DNA from: Peptostreptococcus sp. MV1
GTDB taxonomy: Bacteria > Bacillota > Clostridia > Peptostreptococcales > Peptostreptococcaceae
Direction of reading: 5' to 3'
DNA: 64,000 nt
NCBI RefSeq assembly: GCF_000758885.1
Contig: NZ_JRNB01000119.1
Location: 1-64,000, forward strand
The first letter of the stretch is position 1, and every line of letters begins with the position of its first letter. Below are positions 33,061 through 54,786 of this stretch, piece after piece. A program made the position numbers and the translations under genes. The notes below the pieces were generated by a model that saw nothing but the letters and a program-made list of their open reading frames with translations, made no database searches and was not told the origin of the DNA.

Positions 33061-33793
33061 TAAACTTTATATACTGGCTATAGTCTTTTGGTTAGCTATA
33101 TGGCAAATAGTCAGTTCATTGATAGGCCAGGAGATACTTTTAGTGTCTCCTGTTTCTGCTTTGCTAAGGTTGGGGAGCCTGGCCTTAGAAGTAGATTTTT
33201 GGAAGACGGTGTGGTATTCGTTTTCTAGGATTAGCCTGGGATTTTTATTGGCCTTTATTCTCGGCATAGTTATGGCCTTGATGGGGGCAGTCTATAGGTG
33301 GTTTAGGATATTTTTGGAGCCCCTAATGGCTACTATTCAGGCGACTCCAGTGGTTTCTTTCATAATACTATGTCTGATATGGATATCGTCAAAAAATTTG
33401 TCGATTCTTATATCTTTCTTGATGGTCCTACCGATTATATATACCAATGTATTGACTGGTATTGATAGCCTTGACTCATCACTTAGGGATATGTCGCAGG
33501 TATTTAGGATGAAAAAGACCAAGATTATTAGGTATATATACCTGTCAGAGGTCTATCCTCATCTTAGGTCTGCTAGCCGAGTTTCCTTGGGACTAGCATG
33601 GAAGTCAGGTATAGCTGCAGAGGTAATAGGTATGCCTAATATGTCTATAGGAGACAACCTCTACCAGGCCAAGATTTATTTGAGTACGGGAGACCTATTT
33701 GCCTGGACCCTAGTCATTATTGTGCTAAGTGTGGTCTTTAGGAAGGTTTTTATGAGCTTGATAGACAAGTTAGTTAGTGTTTTGTCTGTATAG
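33032..33793 (+). CDS. ABC transporter permease of the SsuA/NMT1-type importer
   Basis: The 253-residue protein is a typical BPD_transp_1 inner-membrane permease with about six membrane segments (for example LYILAIVFWLAIWQIVSSLI, ISLGFLLAFILGIVMALMGAV). The cytoplasmic loop that meets the ATPase is GIAAEVIGMPNMSIGDNLYQAKIY. The gene overlaps the binding-protein gene by 29 bases. Two starts are possible: ATG 33032 and ATG 33044. Neither has an ideal ribosome-binding site, as GGAGG at 33012-33016 is 15 or more bases away, so coupling by translation of the upstream gene is likely. Confidence 0.9.
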   Translation: MISTMYKKTSKLYILAIVFWLAIWQIVSSLIGQEILLVSPVSALLRLGSLALEVDFWKTVWYSFSRISLGFLLAFILGIVMALMGAVYRWFRIFLEPLMATIQATPVVSFIILCLIWISSKNLSILISFLMVLPIIYTNVLTGIDSLDSSLRDMSQVFRMKKTKIIRYIYLSEVYPHLRSASRVSLGLAWKSGIAAEVIGMPNMSIGDNLYQAKIYLSTGDLFAWTLVIIVLSVVFRKVFMSLIDKLVSVLSV

Positions 33794-33856
33794 TATCTTG
33801 TCTGCAGAATATCTTGTTTGCAGAGTATCTTGTATGTATAATATCTTGAGCACAAG
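33793..33856 (+). repeat. 16-bp tandem repeat between permease and ATPase genes
   Basis: Four tandem units of 16 bases start GTATCTTG or ATATCTTG. The first two are GTATCTTGTCTGCAGA and ATATCTTGTTTGCAGA, and the next two are degenerate. They begin at the last base of the permease stop codon. Confidence 0.85.
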
Positions 33857-37532: not shown

Positions 37533-38843
37533 ATGAAGAATTTTTATGATGTTGTGATAGTCGGTAGTGGAGCAGCAGGTCTTTCTTGCGCCCTAAAATT
37601 AGACCCTGATTATCATATATGCTTGATATCAAAAAAGGGCCTTTCAGAAGCCAATTCATATCTGGCTCAGGGGGGGATATCAGCCAAGCTAGCCGATGAA
37701 AACCTAAATGACTATATTGAGGATACCCTAAAGGCAGGTCATTATGAAAATGATGTGGATGTAGTAAGGGATATCTTGGATAATTCCCTTGATGTAGTCA
37801 AGGACTTGGTGGACTATGGTGTTGATTTCGATAAAAATAGTGATAAATCCTATAACCTACACAAGGAGGGTGGTCACAGGTTACCTAGGGTATATCACGT
37901 TGGAGACTTTACTGGTAGGTCCATATGTGAGGCCATGGCAGAAAATGTAAAGGCGAGAACTAATATAGAAATATGTGAAAACACTACCTTTTATGACCTG
38001 ATTGTCGAAGGCGAAAAGGCTGTAGGTATAAGGGTCTTTACTAAAGATGGCTACAAGAATATATATGCTAGGGCAGTGGTATTGGCTACAGGTGGCATAG
38101 GTGGAATATTCAATTCATCTACCAATTACAAGTCGGTGTCTGGAGAGGCCCTATCCATAGCCATGAAGCATGGTGTAGAGCTTTCTAATCTGGAATATAT
38201 ACAGATACACCCGACTGTCCTATATGATGAAGCCATGGGCAGGCATAGTTTGATTACAGAGGCCCTAAGGGGAGAGGGTGGTATACTTCTCGACGTAAAT
38301 GGAAATAGGTTTATTGACGAGCTACTACCTAGGGATGTGGTCAGCAAGGCCATAAGTAAAAAGATGGAAGAGGACCATAGTGATTTTGTCTACCTATCAC
38401 TGGAGAATATCAAGAATAGGGACAAGGTTGACCAGACCTTCCCAACAGTCTTCCAGGCCTGTATGGACAAGGGGATAGATATCAGGCATGATATGATACC
38501 TATATGTCCGGGCCAGCACTATCATATGGGTGGTATCAAGGCCAAGATAGATGGTAGGACTAGCATGGCAGGCCTATATGCTGTAGGTGAGACTTCGTGT
38601 ACGGGATTACACGGCAAGAATAGGTTGGCATCTAATTCACTTTTAGAGGCATGTTTCTGCGGCATGAGGTGTGGCGAAAATATAAATGTTTGCCTACCAG
38701 AATTTAAGGCTCATATGGAAGAAAATACAGAAACTAGGAAGATTGACGATATAATTGATGACTACCATAGGATTTTGGTGGATACAATCAAGGAAAGGAA
38801 CCATGATTTTTATGAATACTGGCTTAAAAATGAAAATGCTTGA
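37533..38843 (+). CDS. nadB: L-aspartate oxidase
   Basis: The 436-residue flavoprotein oxidises L-aspartate to iminoaspartate, the substrate of NadA. The N-terminal FAD motif VVIVGSGAAGLSCALKL and the substrate-binding EGGHRLPRVYHVGDFTGR and TEALRGEGGILLDVNGNRF are present, as is GLYAVGETSCTGLHGKNRLASNSLLEA. It is about 100 residues shorter than the E. coli enzyme, lacking most of the C-terminal helical domain, as in other anaerobes where fumarate probably replaces oxygen. It is translated one base after nadA and overlaps nadC by 41 bases. Confidence 0.95.
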   Translation: MKNFYDVVIVGSGAAGLSCALKLDPDYHICLISKKGLSEANSYLAQGGISAKLADENLNDYIEDTLKAGHYENDVDVVRDILDNSLDVVKDLVDYGVDFDKNSDKSYNLHKEGGHRLPRVYHVGDFTGRSICEAMAENVKARTNIEICENTTFYDLIVEGEKAVGIRVFTKDGYKNIYARAVVLATGGIGGIFNSSTNYKSVSGEALSIAMKHGVELSNLEYIQIHPTVLYDEAMGRHSLITEALRGEGGILLDVNGNRFIDELLPRDVVSKAISKKMEEDHSDFVYLSLENIKNRDKVDQTFPTVFQACMDKGIDIRHDMIPICPGQHYHMGGIKAKIDGRTSMAGLYAVGETSCTGLHGKNRLASNSLLEACFCGMRCGENINVCLPEFKAHMEENTETRKIDDIIDDYHRILVDTIKERNHDFYEYWLKNENA

Positions 38844-39660
38844 TAAGATAAGGGAAAGCTTGATGGAAGACATTACCTACAAGGATATCAGCGCAGATGC
38901 CATTATAGATGAAGATAGGATGGCAAGGGCAGACCTGATAGCCAAGGAGGATGGAATAATCTGTGGCTTGGAGGTTTTTTATGAAACCTTCAGGATCTTG
39001 GACCAAGATGTCAAGTTCACCACTTCCTATAAAGATGGACAGAGGGTATCTAGGGGAGATAAGATAGGTCTAGTTGAATGTAGGGCCCAGGCTATGCTCT
39101 TGGCTGAAAGGACGGGCTTGAATTTTCTTCAGAGGATGAGTGGTATAGCCAGTATGACTAGGCTGATGGTGGATAGGCTGGGCGATGAATCTGTGAGCTT
39201 GGTTGACACTAGAAAGACTGCCCCAGGGCTTAGGGTCTTTGACAAGTATTCAGTAGAGGTCGGCGGTGGAAAAAACCACAGGTACAACCTATCCGACATG
39301 GTCATGCTAAAGGATAACCATATAGGTGTGGCCGGTGGTATCAGGCAGGCAGTGGAGATGACAAGAGACAAGCTATCCTTTAGCAAAAAAATAGAGGTTG
39401 AGGTGGAGACTATAGACCAGGTTAGGGAAGCACTAGAGGTCGGCTGCGATATTATAATGTTGGACAATATGTCTCTAGACCAAATAAGGAAAGCTGTTGG
39501 CTTGATAGGTGACCAGGCTCTTATAGAGGTTTCTGGAAATATTAGCCTAGACAATATTGGGTCCTACAAGGGACTGGGAGTAGATATTATATCTTGTGGT
39601 GCCCTTACACATTCTGTAAAGGCCCTAGATATTAGTTTGAAAAATATGAAGATTATTTAA
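38803..39660 (+). CDS. nadC: Quinolinate phosphoribosyltransferase
   Basis: The enzyme (285 residues with this start) converts quinolinate and PRPP to nicotinate mononucleotide, linking NadA to the NAD pathway. Conserved segments are GLNFLQRMSGIAS, LVDTRKTAPGLRVFDKYSVEVGGGKNHRYNLSD and MLKDNHI. The start is set at ATG 38803, close behind AAGGAAAGG (38790-38798); ATG 38812 is an alternative. The gene overlaps the end of nadB by 41 bases. The operon nadA-nadB-nadC ends at a strong terminator. Confidence 0.94.
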   Translation: MIFMNTGLKMKMLDKIRESLMEDITYKDISADAIIDEDRMARADLIAKEDGIICGLEVFYETFRILDQDVKFTTSYKDGQRVSRGDKIGLVECRAQAMLLAERTGLNFLQRMSGIASMTRLMVDRLGDESVSLVDTRKTAPGLRVFDKYSVEVGGGKNHRYNLSDMVMLKDNHIGVAGGIRQAVEMTRDKLSFSKKIEVEVETIDQVREALEVGCDIIMLDNMSLDQIRKAVGLIGDQALIEVSGNISLDNIGSYKGLGVDIISCGALTHSVKALDISLKNMKII

Positions 39661-39671
39661 TTGTATATTTA

Positions 39672-39716
39672 AGTCCTTACGAGAGCCAAATAAGGCTCCT
39701 GTAAGGGCTTTTTTTG
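39672..39716 (+). terminator. Terminator after nadC
   Basis: AGTCCTTACGAGAGCC pairs with GGCTCCTGTAAGGGCT around AAATAA with one small bulge, and TTTTTTT follows. Confidence 0.9.
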
Positions 39717-39823
39717 TATAAAAATTTAAGTTGGTTAGTAGGATAAAAGCGAGCCCTAGCTTTAAGTTTGTGAGATACAAGATTTAATTTTTTCATTTAC
39801 AGATTGGAGAATAAGGTGTAATA

Positions 39824-39829
39824 TATAAT
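39824..39829 (+). promoter_or_regulatory. Likely -10 box of the dinB promoter
   Basis: TATAAT at 39824-39829 lies five bases before the LexA-like site. A clear -35 box at the usual distance was not found; TTTACA at 39796-39801 is too far and TTGGAG at 39804-39809 is too near. Confidence 0.45.
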
Positions 39830-39833
39830 TATA

Positions 39834-39845
39834 GAACATATGTTC
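39834..39845 (+). promoter_or_regulatory. LexA (SOS) box before the Y-family polymerase gene
   Basis: GAACATATGTTC is a perfect palindrome that matches the Gram-positive LexA consensus GAACN4GTTC; the next base is G, as in the extended CGAAC/GTTCG form. It lies just downstream of the -10 box, where LexA would block transcription. Control by LexA is inferred from this match and from the known SOS control of this polymerase type. Confidence 0.85.
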
Positions 39846-39867
39846 GAAAGAGTAAGGGCATAGATAT

Positions 39868-39927
39868 AAATACGAATAGAAATACAAATACAAATACAAA
39901 TACAAATACAAATACAAATAGAGATAG
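39868..39927 (+). repeat. Hexanucleotide tandem repeat in the polymerase leader
   Basis: Ten units of six bases, of which six in a row (39880-39915) are perfect AAATAC. The outer units carry single changes. It lies between the LexA box and the start codon, in the untranslated leader. Confidence 0.95.
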
Positions 39928-39950
39928 ATTTTATAGTGGGGGGTGCTTGT

Positions 39951-41198
39951 GTGAAGGACAAGGTATTTTTTCATATAGATGTGAATTCTGCCTACCTGAG
40001 TTGGGAGGCTGCCAATAGAAAAAGGTTGAATATAGGGGGTCCAGACCTTGTAAATATTGCATCTGCTATAGCAGGTGATCCGGATAGAAGGTCTGGCATA
40101 ATTTTGGCCAAGAGTCAGTTAGCCAAGAATTTTGGTGTCAAGACTGGTGAGCCTGTGGGCATAGCCAGGTCCAAGTGCCCCAATATATACCTAGTTCCAC
40201 CCAACTTTGATACATATGTAGACTACTCTAATATGTTGATGGAATTTTTGAGGACCTATTCCCCAAATGTATACCAATACTCTATAGATGAGGCCTTTTT
40301 GGATATGACTGGTACGGAGAGGTTATTTGGAGACCCTATAGACTGCGCCAATACTATAAGACAGAGGGTCAGGGACGAGCTGGGATTTACTATAAATGTG
40401 GGGGTTTCTGACAAGATGGTTTTAGCCAAGATAGCTGGAGACTTTAGCAAGCCAGACAAGACCCATAGGCTTTTTCAGTCAGAGATAGAGGAAAAGATGT
40501 GGCCTCTTCCGATTGAAGATTTATTTTTCGTTGGGAAAAAGACTTCCAAGAAACTGAGGAGTCTGGGTATAGAAACTATCGGACAGCTAGCCAAGACAGA
40601 CATCAAGTTTATGAAGAGGCATTTCAAAAAGCACGGTCAAGTCATCCACAACCATGCTAATGGTCTAGATGGATATGACTTTTTCCGCAAGCTGACCACC
40701 AACAAGTCGGTTGGAAATTCTACCACTACATCCAGTGATATCAACAGCTACGAAGAGGCCAAGCATTGGATTTTGTCTTTGAGCGAAACAGTGTGTGCTA
40801 GGTTGAGGAAGAAGGAACTCACAGCAGGTGTAGTATCTTTAGAGCTAGTGGACAAGGACTTTAATCGCTGCCAGGCTCAAAAATCTCTGGGTTTTAGAAC
40901 AAATAAGGTGAGTGACGTATATGAGGTATCCTGTAAAATTTTCAAGGATATATGGTCTGGTAGGCCCATCAGGCATATAGGCATAGCTACTAGCAAGGTC
41001 GAAGAAAAAAATTCTGACCAACTTAACTTTTTTAGTCAAATATCCAGCAAGGAGGAAAGGCTATATATAGCCATGGACGATATTAGGTCCAAGTATGGTG
41101 ATGATTCTATCAAGAGGGCTAGCTTCCTAAAGGGGGAGGCAGGACATATGGAGGGGGGTACATCCAAAAATAAAAAGAACGGTTTGGTATACTTATAA
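39951..41198 (+). CDS. dinB: Y-family DNA polymerase (Pol IV type)
   Basis: The 415-residue protein is an error-prone translesion polymerase. It shows the UmuC/DinB core: FFHIDVNSAYLSWEAANR (metal-binding Asp), YSIDEAFLDMTGTERLFGDP (the catalytic Asp-Glu), INVGVSDKMVLAKIAGDFSKPD, and a helix-hairpin-helix region FVGKKTSKKLRSLGIETIGQLAK. The little-finger domain (about 230-345) follows. The start is a GTG at 39951, behind GGGGGGTG, rather than GTG 39936. Expression appears SOS-controlled through the LexA box at 39834. The last 40 residues are variable; no clear clamp-binding motif was identified. Confidence 0.92.
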   Translation: MKDKVFFHIDVNSAYLSWEAANRKRLNIGGPDLVNIASAIAGDPDRRSGIILAKSQLAKNFGVKTGEPVGIARSKCPNIYLVPPNFDTYVDYSNMLMEFLRTYSPNVYQYSIDEAFLDMTGTERLFGDPIDCANTIRQRVRDELGFTINVGVSDKMVLAKIAGDFSKPDKTHRLFQSEIEEKMWPLPIEDLFFVGKKTSKKLRSLGIETIGQLAKTDIKFMKRHFKKHGQVIHNHANGLDGYDFFRKLTTNKSVGNSTTTSSDINSYEEAKHWILSLSETVCARLRKKELTAGVVSLELVDKDFNRCQAQKSLGFRTNKVSDVYEVSCKIFKDIWSGRPIRHIGIATSKVEEKNSDQLNFFSQISSKEERLYIAMDDIRSKYGDDSIKRASFLKGEAGHMEGGTSKNKKNGLVYL

Positions 41199-54463: not shown

Positions 54464-54569
54464 TGTAAAATTAAGTAATACCCTAAAAATAGTTAATAAA
54501 TTGCCGAAAATATTGAATTTTATTATCACTGATTTGGTGTTAAAATATTAATAGAGATAATTTTATTTT

Positions 54570-54588
54570 GAAATTTAGTATCAATATC
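54570..54588 (-). promoter_or_regulatory. Fur-like box, copy 1
   Basis: The minus strand reads GATATTGATACTAAATTTC, which matches 14 of 19 positions of the consensus GATAATGATAATCATTATC. It lies just upstream of the extended -10 at 54598. Confidence 0.6.
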
Positions 54589-54629
54589 AATTATTTGTGC
54601 TATAATTATTGTAGGGATAATTTTATTTT

Positions 54630-54648
54630 GAAATTTAGTATCAATATC
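54630..54648 (-). promoter_or_regulatory. Fur-like box, copy 2
   Basis: The sequence is identical to the first copy, 60 bases downstream. Together they could give cooperative iron-dependent repression of the heme genes. Confidence 0.6.
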
Positions 54649-54786
54649 AACTATTTGTGTTATAATTATTGTAGGGATTATTCAGTGCACGCTATTGAGG
54701 TTATTCAATATGCGATAAAAATAAGTATAATACCTGAATTTTAACGCATATTAAACTAGTTTAGAAGATATGAAGGGGGTGATTTT

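Follow-up and report, generated by a model that had tools for sequence, protein, structure and literature searches.

An AAATAC repeat in the leader of a putatively LexA-controlled Y-family polymerase gene of Peptostreptococcus sp. MV1 is probably a lineage-specific microsatellite

Does a hexanucleotide repeat in the leader of a DNA polymerase gene of Peptostreptococcus sp. MV1 change the amount of polymerase, and with it the mutation rate, or is it a repeat that grew by slippage and has little effect? The repeat is located in the window, the stretch of 64,000 nucleotides that was analyzed, at the start of contig NZ_JRNB01000119.1. The source genome comprises 1.98 Mb in 121 contigs. The features around the repeat are collected in Table 1.

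Table 1. Features of the nadC-polymerase region, with coordinates in the window and the basis of each assignment
Feature	Coordinates	Strand	Basis
nadC, upstream neighbour	38836..39660	+	TIGR00078, 341 bits (cut-off 198)
Terminator-like hairpin 3' of nadC, between nadC and the polymerase gene	39692..39711	+	Consensus scan
Predicted promoter TTTACA-17-TAATAT	39796..39824	+	Consensus scan only, 9 of 12
LexA/DinR-type SOS box GAACATATGTTC	39834..39845	+	Motif match; also 5' of recA, lexA and genus orthologues
Hexanucleotide array	39862..39927	+	AGATAT (39862), AAATAC (39868), GAATAG (39874), 6 x AAATAC (39880-39915), AAATAG (39916), AGATAG (39922)
Shine-Dalgarno-like GGGGGGT	39938..39944	+	Read from the sequence; placement judged by eye against GTG 39951 and the relatives
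Y-family (DinB/UmuC superfamily) DNA polymerase gene	39951..41198	+	ORF; Pfam IMS, IMS_C, IMS_HHH; PDB; genus orthologues 59-67% identical

The initial annotation had counted six perfect and four degenerate units in positions 39868-39927. Ten AAATAC-type units are indeed present in this interval and six of them are contiguous, but seven are exact (the six contiguous ones and an isolated one) and only three are degenerate. The perfect tract covers 39880-39920 (41 nt). Tandem Repeats Finder, run on the window, reported the array at 39864-39920 with a period of 6, 9.5 copies, 90% matches and a score of 93.

The rarity of such tracts was assessed by a census of perfect arrays (units of 4-15 bases, at least three copies) in 586,640 readable bases sampled from the source genome. 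Six arrays were found: an (AAGC)14 array of 56 nt, which alone exceeded the 41 nt of the AAATAC array, the AAATAC array itself and four shorter ones (18-20 nt). Twelve order-5 Markov sequences, each as long as the genome sample, yielded three arrays altogether, all of 18 nt and none longer, and an earlier census with N contigs included left the picture unchanged. The AAATAC array thereby shows the tract length beyond chance that is looked for in contingency loci. Three tandem perfect AAATAC units were found in the source genome at this locus only (none for the reversed-pattern control), and a genome-wide family of AAATAC arrays was rejected on this count. A clean centre flanked by decayed edge units is the usual mark of slippage, from which we infer that the array grew in this way. 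The slippage invoked by the initial annotation agrees, as far as the past is concerned, with this make-up and with the presence of the array in one lineage only, and the array is probably still unstable in length.

Two other tandem repeats were reported in the window, a 60-bp unit at 54552-54682 (2.2 copies, 94% match, Tandem Repeats Finder score 234) and a 16-bp unit at 33782-33848 (4.2 copies of TTGTCTGCAGAATATC, Tandem Repeats Finder).

The gene downstream of the array carries both the catalytic and the C-terminal domain of the Y-family, with Pfam scores of 132.5 bits for PF00817 and 90.8 bits for PF11799 in addition to matches to the IMS_HHH models. Its translation contains SIDEAFLD, which we take to be a Y-family polymerase motif, and its matches among solved structures (PDB) are to DNA polymerase IV. 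The best NCBIfam model, PRK03103 (DNA polymerase IV), scored 347 bits, under its curated cut-off of 381 bits. A YolD-family partner (PF08863) gave no match in the source genome, while the B. subtilis positive control was detected. According to the available parts of the literature, the SOS response induces the B. subtilis polymerase YqjW, which has a part in UV mutagenesis, and a YolD protein nearly always accompanies polymerases of the YqjW and UvrX groups (PMC6511836, PMC3901139). The gene studied here resembles yqjW, as described there, in that a LexA-type box precedes a Y-family polymerase gene of a Gram-positive host, but differs from it in that no YolD gene was found in the source genome and the PRK03103 match stays below the cut-off; by the YolD partner, it would not fall into the YqjW/UvrX (UmuC-like, YolD-associated) subgroup. 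Judged from its translation, the protein is a Y-family translesion polymerase. The label 'mutagenic' in the initial annotation is fair as far as the family suggests it, given the PRK03103 score and the lack of a YolD match.

Another Y-family polymerase, judged by eye to be UvrX-like and split over two frames, was observed close to one end of a contig of 7,997 bp (C115:6179-7538, minus strand, L121), together with metal-transport-like and fumarate-reductase-like genes. It is possibly a broken mobile-element gene, or the split may be a sequencing error.

The gene order is nadA-nadB-nadC, polymerase gene, gnd, where nadC and gnd were named by matches to NCBIfam-type models and nadA and nadB by reading ORF translations. 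With a terminator-like hairpin located behind nadC, the polymerase gene is probably transcribed from a promoter of its own. The consensus scan also gave an alternative -10 element, TATAAT at 39824-39829, and in relatives comparable -10 boxes could be seen, by eye, immediately 5' of the LexA-like box. GTG 39951 is most likely the start codon, judged by comparison with relatives; a GTG at 39936 would give a longer ORF of 420 aa.

The box in the window is the single perfect GAAC-N4-GTTC site there, and as 0.49 sites are expected by chance, this count alone proves nothing. The source genome contains 14 perfect sites compared with 73 for the reversed control pattern, so most single boxes are due to chance. 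Nine of the 14 lie inside long ORFs, and two others lie 14 nt 5' of a 153-aa ORF (L104) and 16 nt 5' of a 77-aa ORF (L101). Three are convincing: one 74 nt 5' of a recA-like ORF, one 30 nt 5' of a lexA-like ORF (both named from their translations, by eye) and one 5' of the polymerase gene, where the box is placed at the promoter as it is at recA and lexA. With one changed end base allowed, the box is found directly 5' of the ribosome site in all six comparable genus orthologues. Because most single boxes arise by chance, this conservation supports SOS regulation more strongly than the motif count does. Control of the polymerase gene by LexA is thus a supported prediction. Among wider relatives the box was seen at 33 of 79 polymerase loci, again with one changed end base allowed and without a chance control, and this serves as background only.

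As the initial annotation had stated, the array lies between the LexA box and the start codon, its last unit ending ten bases 5' of the GGGGGGT motif. The polymerase frame stays open upstream as far as TAA 39867, reading IRIEIQIQIQIQIQIQIEIDFIVGGACV-KDKVFFHID, but no ATG, GTG or TTG was found within the array in this frame. The array is therefore non-coding under the usual starts, which bears out the earlier claim that it does not enter the coding frame, and as units are gained or lost in steps of six bases, unit changes cannot shift a frame. A repeat was regarded as a switch by position if a change in units moves a frame, the promoter spacing, the operator position or the spacing of the ribosome site. 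The array lies 3' of the predicted promoter and of the box, 5' of the predicted ribosome site and outside the usual coding frame, where none of these is moved. An ON/OFF switch is unlikely, and graded tuning is possible but unsupported.

The leader was compared with those of relatives. The comparison within the genus comprised six of the eight other genomes (L006-L011), as G005 and G008 hold only a distant paralogue of 28-29% identity; start codons were assigned by eye, and spacers were read from the printed sequences with the box as anchor. The distance from box to start codon is 105 nt in the genome with the array, compared with 27, 16, 26, 18, 19 and 16 nt in the six congeners. The array of 60-66 nt accounts for most of this excess, and it is absent from all six orthologues. 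Of the 71 family genomes, the source genome alone has four tandem AAATAC units and the remaining 70 have none; the reversed control pattern gave five matches in another family genome (G016). The 5' regions of the other polymerase loci, taken to a maximum of 250 nt, were scanned for 4-9-mers present in at least three perfect copies. All 79 loci were negative, and the same kind of scan found the AAATAC array as a positive control. One of 80 loci (L085), with almost no sequence 5' of the gene, had been omitted from the scan, the 5' region is shorter than 250 nt at some of the 79 (108 nt for L081), and L014 and L006 are one P. faecalis locus.

In P. faecalis, the closest congener, nadC is also located upstream of the polymerase gene (by eye). 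Its leader reads ...GCATAGGGGGGATAATG..., and the genome with the array reads ...GCATAG-[array]-...GTGGGGGGTGCTTGTGTG..., so that by eye it looks as if the array sits between two ends that are otherwise comparable to P. faecalis. MAFFT alignments of the full-length intergenic regions from the window and from P. faecalis were set aside, as they did not place box on box. Because the array is absent from the congeners, from the other polymerase loci and from the other family genomes, it is, on these sequence comparisons, of recent origin or, at the least, confined to this lineage. Its absence from all six comparable congeners means that it is not a conserved device.

The effect of the array on the predicted structure of the leader was analyzed by RNA folding. 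In the natural leader the ribosome site is predicted to be 0.52 unpaired and to require 9.88 kcal/mol to open. In 200 leaders with a shuffled upstream part the site was 0.44 unpaired on average, and 70 of the 200 were as open and 104 as cheap to open as the natural leader. In this model, the accessibility of the natural ribosome site is indistinguishable from that of shuffled leaders. As these perform alike on average, the array's own sequence appears unneeded for accessibility of the site. Natural truncation from about seven units to about one had little influence on the predicted cost of opening, which went from 10.51 to 10.98 kcal/mol. Longer leaders, with a start at or before 39860, gave predicted costs of 9.8-10.1 kcal/mol and a Shine-Dalgarno motif that was 0.43-0.57 unpaired, compared with 0.05-0.17 for leaders cut inside or after the array. 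In the leaders cut at 39880, 39904 and 39920, the Shine-Dalgarno motif pairs with the gene start in the same hairpin of -11.1 kcal/mol. The array itself was predicted to be 0.57-0.88 unpaired across the folded leaders. Since longer leaders are predicted to have a more open Shine-Dalgarno motif, leader length could matter somewhat. The initial annotation had also suggested that the repeat could give heritable variation in mutation rate. Heritable variation of the array today, and an effect of it on expression or mutation rate, found no support: unit changes would alter no promoter spacing, operator position, Shine-Dalgarno spacing or frame, and the predicted accessibility is that of shuffled leaders.

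Taken together, we favour, with somewhat better than even confidence, a slippage-grown and near-neutral leader microsatellite in one Peptostreptococcus lineage. A microsatellite would have arisen in this lineage and expanded by replication slippage within the untranslated 5' region of a Y-family polymerase gene under SOS control, downstream of the LexA operator and upstream of the Shine-Dalgarno motif. As the array overlaps neither promoter and operator nor ribosome site and coding frame, adding or removing units would most likely do no more than lengthen or shorten a leader that is rich in A and weakly structured. Any consequence for translation or mRNA stability would be small and graded, if there is one at all.

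The array is a simple-sequence repeat in a gene leader and as such of a known kind. In Moraxella catarrhalis, an AGAT(n) repeat 132 bp 5' of the uspA2 ORF is described, in the available part of the report, to alter the mRNA level by as much as 3.37-fold between repeats of 17 and of 19 units, while in another strain only a modest mRNA change was described from 12 to 16 units (PMC7302503). Like that repeat, the array is a short-unit tandem repeat 5' of a gene, outside the frame and able to change length (PMC7302503). Unlike uspA2, for which lengths and expression effects were measured and which encodes a surface protein, the gene here encodes a DNA polymerase and is known from sequence alone, and the AAATAC array has fewer perfect units and is partly degenerate. 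As the uspA2 repeat acts from such a place (PMC7302503), expression may be affected also by a repeat that lies upstream and outside the coding sequence. For Salmonella mutL, switching of mutability by gain or loss of an intragenic six-base repeat has been proposed (PMC2955026, in the part available). Both cases link a tandem repeat of six bases to a gene on which mutability depends (PMC2955026). The mutL repeat is intragenic and a copy change gives a defective gene, whereas the AAATAC array occupies an untranslated leader and is known from one allele (PMC2955026). Hexanucleotide repeats of Haemophilus influenzae show no sign of phase-variable expression in the available part of the report, and one of the two varies in unit number among strains (PMC2651432). 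They are likewise hexanucleotide units outside genes, but unlike the AAATAC array are short, with two to three units in the example described, and that part of the report mentions no polymerase leader (PMC2651432). No literature on a LexA-controlled dinB with a phase-variable tandem repeat was found, which is no proof of absence in print. Among the Peptostreptococcus papers on phase variation or repeats that were listed, none concerned the AAATAC array by title, and such a paper may exist in print.

An unlikely alternative, and the one that survives best, is that slippage changes the unit number and thereby tunes the amount of polymerase, which would give heritable variation in damage-induced mutation rate, a graded form of the idea in the initial annotation. 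In its favour, a repeat prone to slippage lies in the leader of a Y-family polymerase gene under predicted SOS control, truncation of the natural leader shifts the predicted accessibility of the ribosome site, and the available accounts of uspA2 (PMC7302503) and mutL (PMC2955026) describe tuning of expression by upstream repeats and repeat-driven mutability switching, respectively. However, the array lies outside promoter, operator, Shine-Dalgarno motif and frame, accessibility is the same as in shuffled leaders, and all six comparable congeners lack it. In its full form, as a recently born device that makes polymerase levels heritable, reversible and graded, so that sub-populations would differ in damage-induced mutation rate while their repair genes stay intact, we consider this idea improbable.

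It is also quite unlikely that an unstructured A-rich leader was selected as such. A ribosome standby site, or another form of translation enhancer, would then offset the hairpin at the Shine-Dalgarno motif, and the total length would count but not the unit number. The hairpin in the three shorter folds, the mostly unpaired array and the more open site in longer leaders fit this idea, but shuffled leaders are equally good and relatives manage without the array.

Repeated binding sites for a protein or a small RNA, on the polymerase mRNA or DNA, are very improbable. The six-base spacing in a regulated leader is regular, and a reverse-strand AAATAC (GTATTT) at 39963-39968, near codons 4-6, could pair with the units; a single nearby complement of a hexamer is unsurprising, however, three tandem units occur nowhere else in the genome, and the perfect centre with decayed edges favours slippage. 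A related proposal, that pairing of units with GTATTT frees the ribosome site, lost its support in the shuffle control. That the array is translated, either as an (IQ)n N-terminal extension of the polymerase, whose frame is open to TAA 39867, or as an opposite-strand (LY)n peptide in a 70-aa ORF (39762-39974), is hardly credible: a stop-free hexamer keeps frames open without meaning, and both were rejected as such by-products, because the extension has no usual start in the array, the antisense ORF has no Pfam match and relatives start at the GTG-equivalent.

A different repeat was observed on the same contig beyond the window, about 46 kb further along than the array: the perfect (AAGC)14 array (C119:86157-86212; L114:2157-2212). 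It is located inside a short leader ORF (MMAKGDNLKASKQASKQ...) that runs into a terminator-like hairpin, AAGCCT-AGTGGC-AGGCTT, followed by a T run. At the present repeat length the leader frame passes through the hairpin, and in one of the two alternative frames a stop lies inside the hairpin. The genes 3' of it resemble, by eye, an operon for a sortase-assembled pilus, with a 734-aa surface protein, a signal peptidase-like protein, a 400-aa protein with a wall-anchor-like end and a sortase-like protein. From its sequence, this layout looks like phase variation via translation-coupled antitermination, so the species may use such repeats. The (AAGC)14 array before the pilus-like operon is a better phase-variation candidate than the AAATAC array.

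If the number of AAATAC units did tune the polymerase, the locus would be a simple and testable case of a reversible tract through which evolution acts on its own mutation rate, outside the mismatch repair genes. For the slippage-grown, near-neutral microsatellite that we favour, the comparison with relatives would illustrate how a leader has grown by simple-sequence expansion in one species, between a conserved LexA box and the ribosome site. The main value of the array would then be that of a possible marker for strain typing, and of a warning that not every repeat in a leader is a switch.
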